Shown here piece after piece: positions 8,066-19,219 of a stretch of DNA of 47,878 bases (its first letter is position 1; each line of letters begins with the position of its first letter). Location of the stretch: the IMG/VR virus record IMGVR_UViG_3300027911_000021, positions 1 to 47,878 of that record; one strand, given 5' to 3'. The translations under genes were made by a program, and so were the position numbers. The notes below the pieces were generated by a model. It had not been told where the DNA came from and did no database searches. It saw only the letters and a program-made list of their open reading frames with translations. Source of the DNA: a virus.

Positions 8066-8346
8066 CCTGGATTTATTTCAACACCTCAGAGTCCGTGCCT
8101 TTCGGTCGGCGCCTCCTCGTCAAGCTCAAGTCCGGCGCTGAGAAGGTCGCAATCTGGGAGAGGCGAGGCACCGTGACAGCGTGGTGGGATGACGCCGGTG
8201 AGCCGACCGGGCTCTACAACGTCGTCGCCTACGCATCGGTCTTTGATCGGCTCATGGCTGAGTTTTCAGAAGCACCAAGAGGGGAGACCAGAAATGACCG
8301 AAACAGCGAGCGAGCCGGACTTCATGGCGATGGCCGCAGCGGATGA
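8062..8346 (+). CDS. Small DUF551-like protein
   Basis: A 94-residue protein with a layout like the protein at 3025..3267: an opening aromatic segment (WIYFNTSESVPFGRRLLVKL), a strand pair around VAIWERRGTVTAWWDD, and an end at NVVAYASV. The last 53 bases overlap the following gene in another frame, so the C-terminal 17 residues may be a by-product of that overlap. Function unknown. Confidence 0.5.
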   Translation: MTWIYFNTSESVPFGRRLLVKLKSGAEKVAIWERRGTVTAWWDDAGEPTGLYNVVAYASVFDRLMAEFSEAPRGETRNDRNSERAGLHGDGRSG

Positions 8347-8857
8347 GCGCCGTGCGCAGGAGTATAAGGCCCGCGAGGCCGGGTGTGCGTTGGATGAAAT
8401 TTCGTATGCGACCCGCCACGCTGACGACTGGAAACCGTCAACGCTTTGGATGATGGCTGACGCCTTCTTCGGCAAAGAGCCTGAGTACGAATGCAAGGGC
8501 ACACTGCGGATTGATGCCATCCACCGCGCATTGGCGAACGGGGATCAGGCGATCGCACTGATCAAGGAGGTCGCCGGCGACGATTGCCAGATTGATTGGT
8601 TCTGGAACTCCTGTCAGGGCCATTACGGCGAAGTGACCACGACGGTCGATGACTTCGAACACCAAGGTTGCGCGACTGGCGGCACGTTCGCGATGGCGAT
8701 CCTGACGGCGTTGCTTGAGTGGGTGCGGTCAGAGCCGCGCGTCATTGAACCGAAAACGCTGACTGCGGTCATCCCCATGAATACAGACGGCGACGTGATC
8801 ACGCCCGAAGCGCTTGAGCAGGCGGTAGCCAAGTTTTCAAACTCACAAATAGGGTAG
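8294..8857 (+). CDS. Hypothetical protein
   Basis: A 187-residue acidic protein, unrecognised. The ATG at 8294 has GGGGAGA upstream at 8281..8287. It contains scattered Cys (AGCALDE, EYECKG, DDCQIDWFWNSC) and ends in a helix-rich C-terminus with EALEQAVAKF. The Cys residues do not form an obvious zinc motif. It overlaps the upstream gene by 53 bases, the largest overlap of the early block. Confidence 0.55.
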   Translation: MTETASEPDFMAMAAADERRAQEYKAREAGCALDEISYATRHADDWKPSTLWMMADAFFGKEPEYECKGTLRIDAIHRALANGDQAIALIKEVAGDDCQIDWFWNSCQGHYGEVTTTVDDFEHQGCATGGTFAMAILTALLEWVRSEPRVIEPKTLTAVIPMNTDGDVITPEALEQAVAKFSNSQIG

Positions 8858-8864
8858 GCACACG

Positions 8865-9095
8865 ATGGCAGCGGAATGGACTAAACTCGATCCTGAGCGG
8901 CACGAAGAATGTGCGAGCGTGAGTTGCGGTCATTCGCCTGCCTCATGGCGGATGGAGGCTGGCGGCGTCGGCTCGTTTTTCTGTGAGATGTGTCACGGCA
9001 AGATCGTCGGCGACGTTACCGTGTCGCACGCTGTCGGACCCTTTGGAATGCCTGCCACACAAATACGGCTTAACCGGATTGTTTTGAGAGACTAG
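8865..9095 (+). CDS. Zinc-ribbon protein, paralogue A
   Basis: A 76-residue protein. Residues about 15-48 hold CASVSCGHSPASWRMEAGG, then FFCEMCHGKI, giving Cys-x4-Cys-x-His ... Cys-x-x-Cys-His, a clear metal-binding ribbon. The protein at 14733..15029 shares almost the same first 50 residues but has an unrelated C-terminus, so the two are duplicates within this genome. GTAGGCAC lies just before the ATG. Such proteins usually act as small regulators or structural cofactors, but nothing shows the partner here. Confidence 0.65.
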   Translation: MAAEWTKLDPERHEECASVSCGHSPASWRMEAGGVGSFFCEMCHGKIVGDVTVSHAVGPFGMPATQIRLNRIVLRD

Positions 9096-9107
9096 GGGGA
9101 AATCCGC

Positions 9108-9683
9108 ATGATTGTGAGCGAGTGCTTGTGGCGACGCCATTGGATCGATGCGAACCGCATCGTCAGCGCGCCCGAACTTAAGTCGGTAGTGGTCGCCGTC
9201 GACCCGCCCATCATGTCGTTTGGGGCGTCGGACCCGTGCGGGATTGTGGTTGCGGGACTTGGGGTCGACGAGCGTGCCTACATCCTTGCGGATCGCACCA
9301 TCGAGGCCAGCGAGCCCAACGTCTGGGCGCGCGCCGCCATCTCCGCCTATCAGGATTTCCAGGCCGACCGTATCGTCGCCGAGGTCAATAACGGCGGCGA
9401 GATGGTCATCTCGGTGCTGCGCCAGATCGACGGCGCCGTGCCCGTGCAAAAGGTTCGGGCCACGCGCGGCAAGTGGCTGCGTGCGGAACCCGTCGCCGCG
9501 CTCTACGCCGAGGGCCGCGTCTCGCACGTCGGCCGCTTCGACAAGCTCGAGGAACAGATGTGCGACTTCGCCATCGACGGTCTCTCCACCGGCCGCTCCC
9601 CCGACCGCCTCGACGCCCTTGTGTGGGCACTGACGGCGCTCATGCTTGATTCGAGACGAACCCCGACGATTAGGGCGCTATAG
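9108..9683 (+). CDS. Free-standing terminase nuclease domain (gene-transfer-agent type)
   Basis: This 191-residue protein is only the C-terminal RNase H-like nuclease domain of a large terminase, beginning just before its first strand. It keeps the three acids: D32 in VVVAVDPP, E92 in IVAEVNNGG and D169 in SPDRLDALVWAL. The spacings (60 and 77) are close to those in this phage's own terminase at 17939..19219 (63 and 77). Wording such as ECLWRRHWID, CGIVVAGLG, RGKWLRAEPVAALYAEGRVS and LDALVWALT is that of terminases from gene transfer agents and related alphaproteobacterial prophages, not of the resident TerL. No Walker motifs are present. A GGGGGAAA sequence precedes the ATG. It could be a relic or a working nuclease; intact catalytic residues favour function. 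Confidence 0.85.
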   Translation: MIVSECLWRRHWIDANRIVSAPELKSVVVAVDPPIMSFGASDPCGIVVAGLGVDERAYILADRTIEASEPNVWARAAISAYQDFQADRIVAEVNNGGEMVISVLRQIDGAVPVQKVRATRGKWLRAEPVAALYAEGRVSHVGRFDKLEEQMCDFAIDGLSTGRSPDRLDALVWALTALMLDSRRTPTIRAL

Positions 9684-9709: not shown

Positions 9710-10243
9710 CTAGGCATCGCGCCGGGGCCGCCGTTCCCACGTCCCGTCCATCCGGTGCTTCCAATTGCTCGCCCTGGTCCCGTTCATTGGTCGCGACGGG
9801 ATTTTCGCCTTGGGCTTGGAGCGCTTGGCCGGTTCCGGCTGCGGGTTCGGTCGTAGCATGGCCTTGCGGCATTCGGCCTGGGCGGCCGTGATGCGGCGCT
9901 TCTTGGCGATCTTCTTGATGTCCTGCGGGGTCTTGACCGCCTCGTGTTCGAGACGCGGGAGCGGTTCGACGTTCGACGGGTGGTTGGTGCCGCCAAGCTC
10001 AAGGGCCGCGAAGTGGTCCCAGCGGTGCCACCTTTCGAAGGTCGCGACGATCTCCTTGGGCGTCTTGGTGCGCGACCACTGCCAGTCGATGATCGGAATC
10101 ATGAGCCCGGTCAATGGGTCGGCCCGCTTCAACTGGAGAATGGTGGCAGCCAGCCGCTCGGTCAGGTTCAGTTTGCGGCGCTGGGTATCCGCAGGCGCTG
10201 GGCACACGTCCTGAGCGGTTTGATCTATGTCATCGATGTCCAT
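9710..10243 (-). CDS. HNH-like endonuclease domain protein
   Basis: A 177-residue leftward gene. Residues about 76-117 read DHFAALELGGTNHPSNVEPL, then H100, EAVKT, DIKKIAKKRR. This matches the phage HNH layout in which an Asp-His pair, an Asn and a late His line the active site, and which usually ends in KT..D...IAK. Zinc-holding Cys pairs are absent. The tail is basic and Pro-rich. ATG 10243 is chosen over an in-frame TTG at 10285 because GGGAAA lies about 9 bases upstream. It is the last gene of the leftward recombination operon and converges with the terminase-fragment gene, leaving 26 bases between stops. A role in DNA processing with the annealing protein and exonuclease is inferred. Confidence 0.65.
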   Translation of the reverse strand: MDIDDIDQTAQDVCPAPADTQRRKLNLTERLAATILQLKRADPLTGLMIPIIDWQWSRTKTPKEIVATFERWHRWDHFAALELGGTNHPSNVEPLPRLEHEAVKTPQDIKKIAKKRRITAAQAECRKAMLRPNPQPEPAKRSKPKAKIPSRPMNGTRASNWKHRMDGTWERRPRRDA

Positions 10244-10291
10244 GGCCGTGTTTCCCGTGGAACGGTGTGGCGCACAGTGTTGCAAGAATGA

Positions 10292-10326: not shown

Positions 10327-11607
10327 TCAGGAGGTCCGGCCTTTGCGCGCTTCCGTCATGATGGCGACGATGCGGTCCTGGTGCAGCGGATGCAGCTTGC
10401 CGAGGTCCTCGCCGTAGGCCGCCAGAGCGTTGGCGAGCACGTCCGGGTCGCGGCTGTAGAGCGACGACTTGGCGAACACCTTGAGCTCGTGCAGGATCTT
10501 CTCACCGAGCTTCCACTCGCGGCTCTTGAAGTCTGGGCACGGGCGCGCCGTCAGGTTGTGCCCGAGCTTGGAGAGCGCGGCATCCAACTGCGCTTTGGTC
10601 TGTTCTGGGGTCACAAGCGCCGCCGCCATCCGGTCGAGCGCGCGTGCCACCACGTCCTTGGGGGCCGGGACGGACGCGGTCGGGATGCTCGGTGCTGGCG
10701 GGGCGACATGGACCGTCACCGGCATGTCGACGGTTGCAGTGCGCGTGACGGGATCCACTCCGATCTGGACCTGGATCGTGTGCTCGACCGCACCCGTGAG
10801 CGGATCCGGTAGCAGTTCGGGCTCGGCCTGGGGCTCTGCCGCAGGCACAACGTCGGCCGCAGCGCTCGGCTCCGAGCTTGCCGCCGGAAGGTCCGGGCCG
10901 TCAGCGGTCGGCACGTCGTCGGAGAACACGTCGTCAGCCTGGGCTTTTGGCACGAGGGTCAGCGGCGTGACGCGGGCGCGCGGGACCGGGCCGGGTCGTA
11001 CCCCCGCCCCAGAACGGTCCGTCAGTTGCGCGCCCGCGTCTCCGATGCGGCCCTCTGCCCGCATTTCGTCGATCTCGGTCTCATCGAGAATTCCGCCCAG
11101 ACCGCCGAGCGAGAGCATCACGCGGCGCTTGGCCTTGGTGGCGGCGGTCATGATGGCGTTGGCGCGGTCGAGCGCGGACAGCGGCTCGTTCGCCAGCGGG
11201 TGTCGCTCCGGTCCCTTCAGGCCGGGGCGGGTGGCCGGATAGAGCAGCGGGACCGCGCCCACGTCGCAATCGGTGCGCCCGTCGCCGGTCGTCGCTCCGG
11301 CCTCGCAGATGCGGACATTGCCGTCATCGTGCGCCGTCAGGCTGGTGATCGAGACCTTGTGAATCGCGCGCAGCTGGTCCGTGCAGTTCTTCAAGGCATA
11401 CAGCTGCAACCGGCCGTCGAGCACGATGTACTTGAGGGGCTTCGTCAGCGGGTTGAGGCCCGCGCCCTTGCAGACCGCCAGCAGATATTCGGTGCGCTCG
11501 TCCTCGCTCAGTTCGGCGAGGTCGCGATCGGCGGCAACGTGGGCGGTGATCTTGGCGGACAAGGGGGACGCCGGCAGGGTCGGGTTCGAAGGGGCGGTGG
11601 CGGTCAT
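10327..11607 (-). CDS. Putative single-strand annealing protein (RecT/Bet-like)
   Basis: A 426-residue protein. Its N-terminal 190 residues resemble phage annealing proteins of the Bet/RecT superfamily: YLLAVCKGAGLNPLTKPLKY, then an LDGRLQLYALKNCTDQLR block, DVGAVPL, ANAIMTAATKAKRRVMLS and GLGGILDETEID. The GLNPLT string is where Bet has GLNPLTREIY. A long Pro/Ala/Glu-rich linker (about 190-310) and a helical C-terminal region (about 320-426) follow. ATG 11607 is used because GGAG lies 9 bases upstream; a TTG is two codons earlier. The gene downstream of a RecE-like exonuclease is the standard place for an annealing partner, which supports the call. Exact subfamily is uncertain. Confidence 0.65.
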   Translation of the reverse strand: MTATAPSNPTLPASPLSAKITAHVAADRDLAELSEDERTEYLLAVCKGAGLNPLTKPLKYIVLDGRLQLYALKNCTDQLRAIHKVSITSLTAHDDGNVRICEAGATTGDGRTDCDVGAVPLLYPATRPGLKGPERHPLANEPLSALDRANAIMTAATKAKRRVMLSLGGLGGILDETEIDEMRAEGRIGDAGAQLTDRSGAGVRPGPVPRARVTPLTLVPKAQADDVFSDDVPTADGPDLPAASSEPSAAADVVPAAEPQAEPELLPDPLTGAVEHTIQVQIGVDPVTRTATVDMPVTVHVAPPAPSIPTASVPAPKDVVARALDRMAAALVTPEQTKAQLDAALSKLGHNLTARPCPDFKSREWKLGEKILHELKVFAKSSLYSRDPDVLANALAAYGEDLGKLHPLHQDRIVAIMTEARKGRTS

Positions 11608-11639
11608 GATCAAATCTCCGGGAATGAATGGGGGCGGAC

Positions 11640-12752
11640 TTAAGCGGCGTTGGAGAACCAGGCCGGCAGGTCGCCGAGGTCGAGGGCGTTCTCAGGCATC
11701 GGGTCGACGTAGCGCCACGCCGTGCCGAAGGCCTGCATGTTCTCGCGGTAGGAATTCAGGGCCGAGGCGACCGCCGCCCGGCCGTGGCTGATCAAGGTGG
11801 CGCCGGCGGGCCGCAGCAGGCAGACCGGAGCGTCCTTCTGGAAAAACGCCCAGTGCCAGAGCCAGTCGGCCGGCTCAAGCGTGGTCAGGGCCTCAAGCCA
11901 CTTCGGGCTGATGCCGTCCGCGCCGGTGACCTTGCCGGACTTGATGAACCCCGCGATCTGGGCCGCGCCGTCGAGGTTGTGAGCGGCCTGCATATCGAGG
12001 CGGTATTCGGCGATTGCGGCGGCAACCGCGCGCTCGGGCGGCAGGTCGCGCTGGTTGGCAAACGACTTTAGGTCCGTTGAGAGCGCAACGAGACGGCGAT
12101 CCTTATTGCGCCCGAGCCGGATATAGTCGAGGCGGGCTTTGCGCGGCACGCCGGCATCGTCCCAGAACACGCTGATCTCGGCCCGGCCGCCCTGGAACGC
12201 TGGGGCGACGTAAGGATCGGCCGCGACAAAGCCGCCGGCGACGATGACCTGCTCATAGACCGCGCGCGGCAGGATCGTGGCCCCGGTCCTGGCAGCCTCG
12301 GCCGCATGGCGATTGAGGATGTCGTCAAAGATAACCGCGGCCGGGTTGGCGGCCTTCAGGCGGGCGACGAGTTCGGGCTTGTTGCCGGTCAGCTTTTCGC
12401 CAAGAGCGCGCAGCGCGTCCTTGATGTCGTCGACGGTGATCAGGCAGCCGGGATGGTCGGCGGGAACCGGCGCGCTGGTATAGGCGGCCTCAAACGCGGC
12501 CCGGCCCTCGAGCACGAGCTTGTGGAGGGCGCGCCCGAAGATCAGGGCTGGCGTGTCGGCATCGCGTGCGCGCATCGGGTTCATCGCGCTCTCGCGCCAG
12601 TAGTACATCGGGCAGGTGTGCAAGCGGCGAATATCGCCGGAGCCGAGCGCTGGGTCGTCGTGGTAGGCGAATTCCGGCAGCCCGAAATAAACGCCAGGAG
12701 CAATGCGGGTGCCGGTCGGGGCGAGGGACTTGAGCGTGGTCATGATGGTCAT
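11640..12752 (-). CDS. RecE-like PD-(D/E)XK exonuclease with SAP-like insert
   Basis: A 370-residue protein of the RecE C-terminal/DUF3799 type. Expected residues are present: GRALHKLVLEG with H77, E192 in RAEISVFWD, D209 in KARLDYIRL and D227-x-K229 in STDLKSF. Near the N-terminus YHDDPALGSGDIRRLHTCP matches the family's opening. Between H77 and E192 lies an unusual stretch, VDDIKDALRALGEKL then TGNKPELVARLKAANP (about 107-137), with the layout of a SAP DNA-binding motif. Known RecE-type enzymes chew the 5' strand of duplex ends for the annealing partner, here encoded 32 bases downstream. ATG 12752 has AAAGGA upstream and follows the operator-controlled promoter at 12799..12867. Confidence 0.8.
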   Translation of the reverse strand: MTIMTTLKSLAPTGTRIAPGVYFGLPEFAYHDDPALGSGDIRRLHTCPMYYWRESAMNPMRARDADTPALIFGRALHKLVLEGRAAFEAAYTSAPVPADHPGCLITVDDIKDALRALGEKLTGNKPELVARLKAANPAAVIFDDILNRHAAEAARTGATILPRAVYEQVIVAGGFVAADPYVAPAFQGGRAEISVFWDDAGVPRKARLDYIRLGRNKDRRLVALSTDLKSFANQRDLPPERAVAAAIAEYRLDMQAAHNLDGAAQIAGFIKSGKVTGADGISPKWLEALTTLEPADWLWHWAFFQKDAPVCLLRPAGATLISHGRAAVASALNSYRENMQAFGTAWRYVDPMPENALDLGDLPAWFSNAA

Positions 12753-12798
12753 GGGGTTCGGTCCTTTGTCGGTTGATGTGTTTCGGGTCGTACATTCC

Positions 12799-12867
12799 GG
12801 GGATGCGTCCCCACATATATCGGGGATACGTCCCCAACTGTCAATCAGGAATTGGGGATTGAGCCCC
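12799..12867 (-). promoter_or_regulatory. Leftward promoter with three repressor-type operators
   Basis: On the leftward strand TTGACA (12839..12844) and GATATA (12816..12821) are separated by exactly 17 bases, a near-consensus sigma-70 promoter for the exonuclease/annealing operon. Three near-palindromes surround it: GGGGATGCGTCCCC (12799..12812) at the start-site side, GGGGATACGTCCCC (12822..12835) inside the spacer, and GGGGATTGAGCCCC (12854..12867) upstream of -35. This is the layout of a lambda-type operator cluster. The Cro-like gene at 12914 is the obvious candidate for the binding protein. Confidence 0.8.
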
Positions 12868-12913
12868 AAAAAGATATTGACGTTACTCGTGCGGTGCAGG
12901 CATACCGGGGAGC

Positions 12914-14556: not shown

Positions 14557-14736
14557 ATGGCTCGCCCCCGCATAGGAGAGGAAAAACGAGCGTCGACTGG
14601 CATCGCTCTGCGTGTGACGCAAGAGATGAAGGACGACGTTGATCGCCTAGCTGCAGCCCGAAAGGTTGGAATCGCGGATGTCGTGAGGGAGGCGATCAAG
14701 GACTACTTGGTGAGGCAGGCGGGGAAGCGCGCATGA
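14557..14736 (+). CDS. Ribbon-helix-helix DNA-binding protein
   Basis: A 59-residue protein that fits the ribbon-helix-helix fold closely: a beta strand TGIALRVTQEMKDDVDRLAA with the strand-helix boundary at RVTQEM, a turn ARKVGI, then a second helix ADVVREAIKDYLVRQ. Such dimers insert the strand into the major groove and often repress their own promoters. AGGAAAGGATC at 14540..14550 provides the ribosome site. The gene lies 53 bases after the palindromic region at 14430..14504, a likely autoregulatory target, and its stop overlaps the next ATG (ATGA). Confidence 0.75.
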   Translation: MARPRIGEEKRASTGIALRVTQEMKDDVDRLAAARKVGIADVVREAIKDYLVRQAGKRA

Positions 14737-15029
14737 CCGCTCCGGTATGGATGAAGTTGGACCCCGAAAACTTCGAGACGTGCGCGAGCGTCAGTTGTGG
14801 TCACTCGCCGGCCGCTTGGCGGATGGAGGCGGCCGGCACTGGGTCGTTCTACTGCGAGGCGTGCCATACCAAAATCGCAGGCCGTGAGGGCCCGTCATTC
14901 ACACAGGACCAGATATTGCGACGGGTGCGGCGGGCGTTAGGTGAGGCGCGAGACCGCGTGATGATTTCGCAGGCACAGTACGACGCGCTCTACGATCGGA
15001 TGAGCGCACCATTCATCGAAGACGTATGA
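14733..15029 (+). CDS. Zinc-ribbon protein, paralogue B
   Basis: A 98-residue protein. The first 50 residues nearly repeat those of the protein at 8865..9095 (WMKLDPENFETCASVSCGHS, then RMEAAGTGSFYCEACHTKI), with the same Cys-x4-Cys-x-His ... Cys-x-x-Cys pattern. The C-terminal half differs: a basic helix, QILRRVRRALGEARDRV, then an acidic end. It is in an operon with the ribbon-helix-helix gene (ATGA overlap) and may be a small regulator or cofactor. The duplication is clear; the function is not known. Confidence 0.65.
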   Translation: MTAPVWMKLDPENFETCASVSCGHSPAAWRMEAAGTGSFYCEACHTKIAGREGPSFTQDQILRRVRRALGEARDRVMISQAQYDALYDRMSAPFIEDV

Positions 15030-15605: not shown

Positions 15606-15621
15606 GCTAGAGGTGATCACG

Positions 15622-16248
15622 ATGAGCCGTTACCTGATGCGAACTCTCGCCTTTGCCGCGCTGGGCCGCCCCGCGCGGCGCTATCAGCCGATCTTGCCAG
15701 CGGTGCCGGTGAGCGCGCCTGATATCGGGTCTGGCCACGTCTATGCCCTGATCAATCCGGCCATGCCCGGCCTGGTCAAGATCGGCTTCACGACCGTTTC
15801 GGTTGAAGGTCGGGCCGCCGATCTCTCGCGCGCCACCGGTGTGCCGCAGTCATTCCAGGTCCTGTGCTCGCTCTCCTGCCGGGACCCGCAAACCGTGGAG
15901 GCGCGGCTCCATCGCTATTTTGCGGAGCGCCGGGTGCGGGGATCGGAATTCTTCTCGATACCGCCCGAGGATGCTCTGATCGCCTTTGAGGCCATGCGCG
16001 GTCTGTTGGGTGCCGCATACGCTCTCCCCGCGAGCCCGGCCCGTGCCCGGTCATGGCTGTGGCCGTTCCCCCCGCTGTCGGCATGGTCCGATTGGCTCGT
16101 CGTGCTCGGTCTCGTGTTTATTCTAGGCTACATGCGCGAGGTCGACTGGGTCTCGGTCTGGCAAACGAGGCCATGGCTCGTATGGCTGGCGCTCTATTTT
16201 ATCGGGTGGATCGTTTGGCGGTTCGTGCGGAAGGCGGAGAGCGGGTGA
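15622..16248 (+). CDS. Membrane-anchored GIY-YIG (T5orf172) protein
   Basis: A 208-residue protein. Residues about 37-127 form a T5orf172 domain of the GIY-YIG superfamily: GHVYALINP (38-46) for the first strand, LVKIGFT (51-57) for the second, R64, then VEARLHRYFAERRVRGSEFF (92-111) with the conserved Glu and His. After it come a Pro-rich linker and two hydrophobic segments (about 157-171 and 185-201), so the nuclease-like domain is tethered to the inner membrane. GIY-YIG domains cut DNA using the Tyr, Arg and Glu seen here. ATG 15622 is chosen because AGGTGATC, fully complementary to the 16S rRNA tail, ends 3 bases before it. A role in excluding incoming DNA is speculative. Confidence 0.7.
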   Translation: MSRYLMRTLAFAALGRPARRYQPILPAVPVSAPDIGSGHVYALINPAMPGLVKIGFTTVSVEGRAADLSRATGVPQSFQVLCSLSCRDPQTVEARLHRYFAERRVRGSEFFSIPPEDALIAFEAMRGLLGAAYALPASPARARSWLWPFPPLSAWSDWLVVLGLVFILGYMREVDWVSVWQTRPWLVWLALYFIGWIVWRFVRKAESG

Positions 16249-17090: not shown

Positions 17091-17285
17091 ATGGCCTGCA
17101 CCGGTTGCCAGCAACTGCGCGCCGGGGCGGTCAGGGCGCTTGCGAGCGGTCGCCTGTCCGAAGCCGCGCGCATCGCCGCAACCGGCCTTCGCCATATTGT
17201 GACGGGAACGACGCCGCCGGCAAAGGCCGCGCCGCCCGTCGTCAGACACCCCTATGTCCGGCCGAGGCTCAAGCCGCGGGCCTGA
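17091..17285 (+). CDS. Small basic protein with N-terminal CxxC
   Basis: A 64-residue protein beginning MACTGCQQLRAGAVRALASG and continuing as one basic helix with a Pro/Arg-rich tail. The single CxxC could bind metal as a dimer. It lies between the basic protein and the small terminase gene. No family is recognised. Confidence 0.5.
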   Translation: MACTGCQQLRAGAVRALASGRLSEAARIAATGLRHIVTGTTPPAKAAPPVVRHPYVRPRLKPRA

Positions 17286-17307
17286 GACACAACCGGATCA
17301 CCCGATC

Positions 17308-17949
17308 ATGGCTTCCCAAACCCGGCGCACGGCGCCCGACCGGCTGACGCCGGCCCAGTCCAAATTCTGCGACCACTATGCCCTCCACGGCAACGGCGCC
17401 GAGGCCTATGCCCACGCCTATCCGGCCTCGCGAAAGCAGTCTCCGAAGTACCGCGGCAACAAAGCGGTGCAGCTTCTCAAGAAGGTAGGAATCAAGGGTG
17501 GAATCGCCGCCCGGTCCGAACGGGCCTCGGAAATGGCACTCCACGAGTTCGAAATCAGCGCCCATCGGGTGCTCCAAGGCCTTGCGGCAATTGCCTTCGC
17601 CGACCCCGGCGATTTCTATCAATGGGGCAGTCGTCGGGTGCCGATCTACAACAAGGACGGCAGTCCGCGGCACGACTCCAAAGGCCGTCAGGTCTTCGAG
17701 GATGTGCCCTATCTTACCATCAAGCCGTCGAATGGCCTGACCCGTGAGCAGCGGGCCGCCATCGTCGGGGCCGATCTGACCGTCTCGCAGACCGGAAAGC
17801 AGATGCTTTCGATCAAGATGGCCGACAAACGGGCGGCTCTGCGGGACCTCGGTCAGCACTTGAAGCTCTTCACCCAAGGCATAGACATCGGCGGCAAGGG
17901 GGGCGGTCCGGTCCAGCTTGTCATCTCGAGCGCCGAGGATGCCCTTTAA
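17308..17949 (+). CDS. Terminase small subunit
   Basis: A 213-residue protein of the Terminase_2 type. Residues about 10-65 hold the family's LTPAQSKFCDHYALHGNGAE opening, the AYPASRKQS...GNKAVQLLKKV helix-turn-helix and the RSER end. A longer middle region with FADPGDFYQWG and KLF completes the usual plan. It recognises phage DNA and feeds it to the large subunit, encoded directly downstream with an 11-base overlap. ATG 17308 is preferred to an earlier in-frame GTG because the conserved region starts soon after it. Confidence 0.85.
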   Translation: MASQTRRTAPDRLTPAQSKFCDHYALHGNGAEAYAHAYPASRKQSPKYRGNKAVQLLKKVGIKGGIAARSERASEMALHEFEISAHRVLQGLAAIAFADPGDFYQWGSRRVPIYNKDGSPRHDSKGRQVFEDVPYLTIKPSNGLTREQRAAIVGADLTVSQTGKQMLSIKMADKRAALRDLGQHLKLFTQGIDIGGKGGGPVQLVISSAEDAL

Positions 17950-19219
17950 GTACACCGCCGACCAGGCCACCGCTCTGCATCTGCTCGGCGGTCCGGCGCG
18001 TCATACGATGCTGTATGGCGGCGGCCGGTCCGGTAAGACGTTCCTCTTGACCTCGGCCATGGTCATCCGCGCCATGAAGGCGCCGGGCTCGCGCCATGCC
18101 ATCTTCCGGCACCGCTTCAATCACCTCAAGGCCTCGATCGGTCAGGACACCTTTCCCAAGGTGATGCAGTGCCGGTTTCCCGGCGTGCCCTACCACATCG
18201 ACCGCAGTGACTGGGTCATCAAGGTCGGCGGCTCGGAAATCTGGCTGCTCGGCCTCGACGACAAGGACCGCACCGAGAAGATTCTCGGCCAGGAATTCGC
18301 GACCCTCTACTTCAACGAGTGCTCGCAAATTGCTTATAGCGCCGTGCTCATGGCGCGGACCCGACTGGCGCAGAAAACGACGCTGGTGCCGCGGGCCTAT
18401 TACGACTGCAACCCGCCAGGCTCCAAGCACTGGACCTCGCTCATCTTCGTCGGCAAGAAGGATCCGGCCTCCAAGCCAATGGGCGCGCCTCTGCCCAACC
18501 CGGACAATTTCATCGCGACCGTGATGAACCCGGAAGGCAATGCCGAAAACCTTCCGCCTGAGACCCTGGAAGAATTGCGCAACCTGCCCGAGCGGCAGCG
18601 CAACCGCTTCTATCTCGGCAAGTTCACGACCGATCTCGACAATGCGTTGTGGACGCCTGAGAGCTTTCACCGTGTCGATGGTGATCCGGTCGAGCTTGCC
18701 AAGGAGTGCGATCGCGTCGTCGTTGCTGTCGATCCTTCGGGCTGTGACGGGGCTGAGGACAAACGCTCCGACGAGATTGGCATTACGGTCGCCGGCCGCT
18801 ACCGCGGACAGAAGCGGTACGTCGTGCTTGCCGACCGCACGCTGCGCGGCAGTCCGGATCAATGGGCGCGGGCGGCGTGCAAGGCCTATTCCGACTTCAA
18901 GGCCGACACCGTGATCGCCGAGCGTAACTACGGCGGCGCGATGGTCGAGCATACGATCCGGTCCGCCGACCGTTCCGTCCCCGTTAAGGTGGTGACGGTG
19001 CATCGCGGTAAAAACATCCGTTCCGAGCCGATCTCTGTGCTCTACGCCAAAGGCCTGGTGGACCATGTCCAGGGGCTTGGTGATCTTGAGGACCAGGCGA
19101 CCAACATGACCACAGCCGGATACATGGGCGAGAAATCTCCGGACCGCCTCGATGCCGCCGTTCACGCCCTCTCCGACCTGTCGCAGGGTCGGACCATCAC
19201 CTTCCACGGCATCGCCTGA
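17939..19219 (+). CDS. Terminase large subunit
   Basis: A 426-residue packaging motor. The Walker A motif is YGGGRSGKT (26-34) and the Walker B-like TLYFNE (122-127) ends in the catalytic Glu, though with Asn instead of Asp before it. The nuclease domain has D265 in VVAVDPS, E328 in IAERNYGG and D405 in SPDRLDAAV. It translocates DNA into the prohead and cuts it. Compared with many phage terminases of about 500 residues it is compact. The domain is homologous to the separate protein at 9108..9683 but clearly of a different lineage. The start overlaps the small-subunit gene and the stop abuts the portal start. Confidence 0.93.
   Translation: MPFKYTADQATALHLLGGPARHTMLYGGGRSGKTFLLTSAMVIRAMKAPGSRHAIFRHRFNHLKASIGQDTFPKVMQCRFPGVPYHIDRSDWVIKVGGSEIWLLGLDDKDRTEKILGQEFATLYFNECSQIAYSAVLMARTRLAQKTTLVPRAYYDCNPPGSKHWTSLIFVGKKDPASKPMGAPLPNPDNFIATVMNPEGNAENLPPETLEELRNLPERQRNRFYLGKFTTDLDNALWTPESFHRVDGDPVELAKECDRVVVAVDPSGCDGAEDKRSDEIGITVAGRYRGQKRYVVLADRTLRGSPDQWARAACKAYSDFKADTVIAERNYGGAMVEHTIRSADRSVPVKVVTVHRGKNIRSEPISVLYAKGLVDHVQGLGDLEDQATNMTTAGYMGEKSPDRLDAAVHALSDLSQGRTITFHGIA

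Follow-up and report, generated by a model that had tools for sequence, protein, structure and literature searches.

A terminase nuclease domain of gene-transfer-agent type carried as a separate gene by a tailed phage, and its possible role as a decoy

The stretch of DNA analysed here, the window, is 47,878 bases long and is the whole of an IMG/VR virus record. It carries portal, protease, major head protein, baseplate and tail fibre genes and is, judged by these, a tailed phage. The features that matter for the argument are these.

8865-9095, plus strand: preceding gene, a small Cys-rich protein of 76 aa that matches no known family
9094-9100, plus strand: Shine-Dalgarno-like AGGGGGA, read from the sequence
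9108-9683, plus strand: free-standing terminase nuclease domain of GTA type (P0001), 191 aa, ATG start
9710-10285, minus strand: HNH endonuclease-like gene, a weak match (PHROG_7785, E 0.0034)
10327-11613, minus strand: open reading frame of the convergent block
11640-12869, minus strand: exonuclease VIII-like gene with an inserted SAP domain
17254-17949, plus strand: resident small terminase (PHROG_51, E 4.2e-21)
17918-19219, plus strand: resident full-length large terminase (TerL), 433 aa, Terminase_6N plus Terminase_6C

The frame at 9108-9683 is intact and complete. Its AGGGGGA, which shares bases with the stop codon of the preceding gene, lies 7 nt 5' of the ATG. The gene stands among phage early and recombination genes, not in a gene transfer agent (GTA) cluster, and it is the last plus-strand gene ahead of a convergent minus-strand block. 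This position agrees with the end-of-early-operon placement proposed in a first, sequence-only reading of the window. Transcription together with the upstream genes is plausible only. The joins fall at the open reading frame and its ribosome site, which makes a misassembly of the metagenome unlikely.

Three other genes of the window may be mentioned here. The small Cys-rich protein directly preceding P0001 has a paralogue at 14733-15029 (both CxxxxC...CxxC, of no known family). For the early-operon neighbour at 8189-8857, relatives were sought in viral contigs and none was found. The gene at 15613-16248 encodes a T5orf172/MUG113 domain protein with hydrophobic C-terminal segments; it matches the PADLOC candidate PDC-S57 (E 2.3e-25) and is possibly a phage-carried defence gene. 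PADLOC gave no match for P0001 itself.

What kind of protein is P0001? Its sole Pfam match is Terminase_6C (PF17289, E 2.4e-21), extending over residues 30-177 and covering profile positions 2-154 of 155. At 76.7 bits against a curated cut-off of 22.6, the score is far too high for a chance match. The catalytic acids are D32, E92 and D169, spaced by 60 and 77 residues, and D166 is retained too, so that the D-x-x-D motif is present. These four acids are invariant across 43 aligned, homologous nuclease domains. The N-terminal packaging ATPase, to which the nuclease is fused in a TerL, is missing, and P0001 is therefore not a TerL. No remnant of an ATPase was found in the frame or nearby: the GTA TerL L114 matches the window at 9117-9680 and, apart from that, at the resident TerL alone. 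On the same ground we rejected both a fusion to what is left of an ATPase and a splitting of the resident TerL. Thus the description first given from the sequence alone, of the nuclease half of a large terminase with its own ribosome site and three catalytic acids spaced much as in the resident TerL, holds in each of these respects.

If P0001 is a terminase fragment, from which terminase was it taken? The closest relatives are GTA TerLs, 63-68% identical over residues 4-191, C-terminus included. A scan of GTDB genomes gave 65% identity to L114, and the GTA TerLs of G818 and G844, two genomes from a single Hyphomicrobiales family, reach 68%. The alignment with host GTA TerLs reaches the last residue, and the position of the stop is shared. 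In a tree of 111 rows P0001 falls inside the GTA TerL clade of that family (28 rows, support 100/97); its end branch of 0.30 is no longer than those of some GTA rows (L369, 0.31). In a second tree, of 46 rows, it pairs with L359 at 95/85.

Two residues are known to separate GTA from viral TerLs, P282 and C292 of RcGTA (Kogay et al. 2021, PMC7947584). The proline occurs in 90% of GTA TerLs and in none of the nearest viral ones, the cysteine in 99% against 4% (PMC7947584). The corresponding residues of P0001 are P34 and C44, a correspondence read from the motif DP-[P/A]...[C/T]-G and the equal distance of 10 residues. Its C-terminal arm, PTIRAL at residues 186-191, fits the pattern P-x-[VILA]-R-x-hydrophobic, which 111 of 112 GTA TerLs have as their C-terminus and which is absent from the TerLs of the resident phage and of a sister prophage.

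The limits of the capture can be read from the DNA. Similarity to the GTA genes of the family, at about 66-73%, begins no earlier than 9113 and extends no further than 9649, and none was detected outside the frame of P0001. The capture was therefore trimmed to the nuclease domain, in keeping with the earlier proposal that the protein starts at the domain border. That proposal's assignment to the GTA lineage is supported by the tree, by P34 and C44 and by the arm. Compared with the RcGTA-like TerL (g2) of Hyphomicrobiales GTAs, P0001 thus has the same nuclease domain, both diagnostic residues, the arm and the stop position; it differs in lacking the ATPase half and in residing in the early operon of a phage. 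We conclude, with near certainty, that a Hyphomicrobiales phage has captured the nuclease half of the large terminase of a host GTA, and that P0001 is this half, now a separate gene. Among the GTA sequences themselves, two Rhizobiaceae-type clusters (L152, L155) come from metagenome-assembled genomes labelled Arenimonas and Pantoea, probably through contamination or misnaming, and the GTA TerL genes of two Rhizobiales genomes (L176, L167) have an internal frame break.

Might P0001 instead be a copy of the phage's own terminase? The resident TerL belongs to the same domain family, is 46% identical to P0001 over the nuclease domain and has the same spacing between its last two acids (D272, E335 and D412, spaced by 63 and 77). 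On the other hand, it is a full-length protein of another lineage, with S and I, as in viruses, at the two diagnostic positions and a different C-terminus, and in the 111-row tree it groups with a prophage TerL at 100/100, far from P0001. A duplication, recent duplication included, is refuted by the tree, the diagnostic residues and the arm, and we regard it as almost certainly wrong.

How widespread are such genes? A resident-like TerL occurs in only 2 of 103 genomes of the Hyphomicrobiales family. One of these, G818, is home to the sister prophage and also to the GTA TerL that scores highest against P0001. Its prophage TerL (L394) is 71-72% identical to the resident TerL, and its prophage contig has structural genes in the order of the window, at about 31-52% identity. 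With the TerL at 72% and the other shared proteins at about 31-52%, the TerL may have been exchanged separately. The G818 prophage has no stand-alone nuclease gene, the two P0001 matches in that genome being the GTA TerL and the prophage TerL; the gene was therefore gained in, or kept only by, the lineage of the window.

The sequence-only reading had suggested a survey of related phages for conserved stand-alone copies, and this did not bear out such a family. Twenty-three related viral contigs have a single TerL match each and no stand-alone copy. Of 361 phage records with a match to P0001, only Caulobacter phage Sansa has it in two places (two accessions, one genome), and there the active site is dead. 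Single-sequence searches, which distant stand-alone copies could escape, found no closer phage with the gene in the collections covered, and DNA patterns (a ribosome site with ATG and VAVDP or VDPP) gave no further copy among the matches listed. The short frames checked among the Hyphomicrobiales matches were contig ends or a frameshift (G847, G862, L176).

Separate nuclease-domain genes were also seen in six alphaproteobacterial genomes. In three of 1.3-1.5 Mb (L353, L354, L355) a GTA-related TerL is split into two genes, an ATPase gene of about 257 aa that ends at the domain border and, about 0.5 kb on, a nuclease gene of about 165-186 aa with the acids kept; a small ORF of 85-98 aa lies between them in L354 and L355, and the two diagnostic positions hold the virus-type A/T. 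Three others of 0.9-1.8 Mb (L352, L356, L357) have a nuclease-domain gene of 170-178 aa, with no ATPase domain detected in the stretch fetched; in L357 a small ORF lies directly upstream.

The second phage case deserves a closer look. Sansa gp95 (AKU43499.1) is a separate gene of 181 aa annotated as 'DNA-packaging protein' (KT001913, 64881-65426; L197:4882-5427, minus strand), located near the primase and sliding clamp genes, and gp21 is the Sansa TerL (see also PMC4599082). Gp95 carries the GTA-type P and C. Among the domains compared, 38 of its best 40 matches are of P/C type, the other two being unreadable by pattern, and in a tree of 46 rows its smallest well-supported set (9 rows, 97/84) is otherwise all of P/C type. 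It sits on a very long branch and its exact placement is unsure; an AU test does not reject its grouping with all P/C rows (p 0.356). Like P0001, then, it is a stand-alone TerL nuclease domain with GTA-type P and C in a phage that has its own full TerL. It differs in being only 33% identical, in its separate lineage, in its place in a replication module and in its active site: E92 is replaced by A and D169 by N, D32 and D166 being kept. Since two acids have been lost from a phage gene that has an annotated ribosome site, its sequence points to a non-catalytic role, a relic being also possible.

Is P0001 itself decaying? Against 17 GTA genes its median dN/dS is 0.208, compared with 0.205 among GTA genes at equal distance, these being pairwise values with dS near saturation. 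The codon-position pattern is alike for P0001-GTA and GTA-GTA pairs. Of 50 family-invariant columns P0001 keeps 48, the misses being residue 2 and a Q to N change at residue 95. Because its dN/dS of 0.21 equals that between GTA genes, these comparisons suggest a gene with no sign of decay, although a gene captured recently from a GTA outside the sample would be indistinguishable; most of the branch leading to P0001 may date from its time as a host GTA gene. The earlier idea of a relic is weakened by this ratio together with the intact acids and fold, and survives to the extent that a recent capture would give the same picture.

The fold itself was predicted by AlphaFold2 at a mean pLDDT of 89; stretches below 50 are limited to the first 3 and the last 7 residues. 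With this model Foldseek found TerL nucleases (8dgc, 5m1f, Sf6, RB49, HK97) and RuvC-type resolvases, among them T. thermophilus RuvC (4ld0, E 4.3e-06), that is, an RNase H-like fold with D...E...DxxD. A sequence search of the PDB gave chance matches only. P0001 shares its fold and two-metal active site with RuvC and with the isolated nuclease domains of G20c, RB49 gp17 and Sf6 gp2. The latter, unlike P0001, were cut from full proteins in the laboratory, and RuvC, a dimeric resolvase, belongs to another sequence family, one that P0001 does not match in Pfam.

What role might such a domain play in a phage that has a terminase of its own? Since a GTA will package whatever DNA the cell contains, phage DNA is a likely victim. 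We propose, tentatively and as something short of probable, that P0001 is a decoy that poisons or misdirects GTA packaging. The free domain keeps what would be the docking surfaces of the GTA TerL, namely the GTA-type loop and the C-terminal arm, without the motor. It would occupy GTA portals, or the ATPase lid of the GTA TerL, so that GTA packaging would be stalled or misdirected and phage DNA would be neither cleaved nor loaded into GTA particles. As the resident TerL and portal come from another lineage, the motor of the phage itself would be left alone. Cleavage by P0001 may help the decoy but would not be required.

Published work on terminases bears on these steps. In D6E an arm that follows the last nuclease helix, with a conserved arginine, is proposed to bind the portal, and it touches the ATPase site (PMC5727402). 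The nuclease domains of HK97 have been fitted directly below the portal (PMC10359639). When T4 gp17 was split at the linker the nuclease was kept and translocation was abolished (PMC3012670). Isolated nuclease domains are weaker, as in SPP1, or inactive, as in P22 (PMC5389553). The nuclease domain of RcGTA did not bind the small terminase gp1 (PMC6854486), and the possible targets of a decoy are therefore fewer. For the decoy count the arm motif, shared with the GTA TerLs and missing from the resident TerL, and Sansa gp95, GTA-type but lacking the equivalents of E92 and D169. Against it counts the intact set of catalytic acids in P0001, which a pure decoy would not need.

Those same acids are the main reason to consider a free RuvC-like endonuclease, which would resolve or trim branched DNA, or cut host or rival DNA, within the recombination set of the phage. 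The D-x-x-D is complete, the fold matches the G20c TerL nuclease, RuvC and Ydc2, and the G20c nuclease uses RuvC-like chemistry (PMC5389553). The exonuclease VIII-like and HNH-like genes adjoin P0001, Sansa gp95 lies between primase and sliding clamp genes, and the split T4 gp17 retained nuclease function (PMC3012670). However, gp95, the case most alike in setting, has lost two of the three acids; isolated TerL nuclease domains, those of SPP1 and P22 for example, are often weak or dead (PMC5389553); and a general nuclease needs neither the GTA-specific loop nor the arm. We consider this endonuclease reading rather unlikely, though worth weighing.

Equally improbable in our estimation, and equally worth weighing, is a passenger, a recently captured fragment of a host GTA that is intact by chance and has no role. 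Its absence from the sister prophage and from the 23 related contigs would fit a passenger, as would the GTA-like dN/dS if the capture were very recent. But both ends are cut exactly to the nuclease domain, a good ribosome site is fitted to the upstream stop, the frame is intact and a second phage has a similar gene.

Avs proteins sense TerL, and the top structural match of P0001 is a TerL bound to Avs3 (8dgc). Could P0001 tie up such a host sensor before the real TerL appears? This seems very unlikely: a fragment that the sensor recognises could just as well set off the defence, and the GTA-specific origin would be left unexplained.

The two captures, P0001 and Sansa gp95, share fold and lineage features and not catalysis, and this favours, without proving, a decoy that acts on GTA packaging motors. 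Caulobacter crescentus, a laboratory host, has a working GTA, and cells that produce GTAs lyse at the end of the process (PMC9632790). A broader proposition, that phages of GTA-bearing alphaproteobacteria repeatedly capture the GTA nuclease domain as a dominant-negative decoy with catalysis optional, is possible but doubtful. If it is true, such a decoy would be a phage counter-measure to gene transfer agents; a limited literature search turned up no phage gene described as directed against GTAs. The nuclease domain of a TerL can, in any case, exist as a gene of its own. With one such domain cut exactly from a GTA motor, and another with a dead site in a phage of C. crescentus, the conflict between phages and GTAs becomes directly testable.
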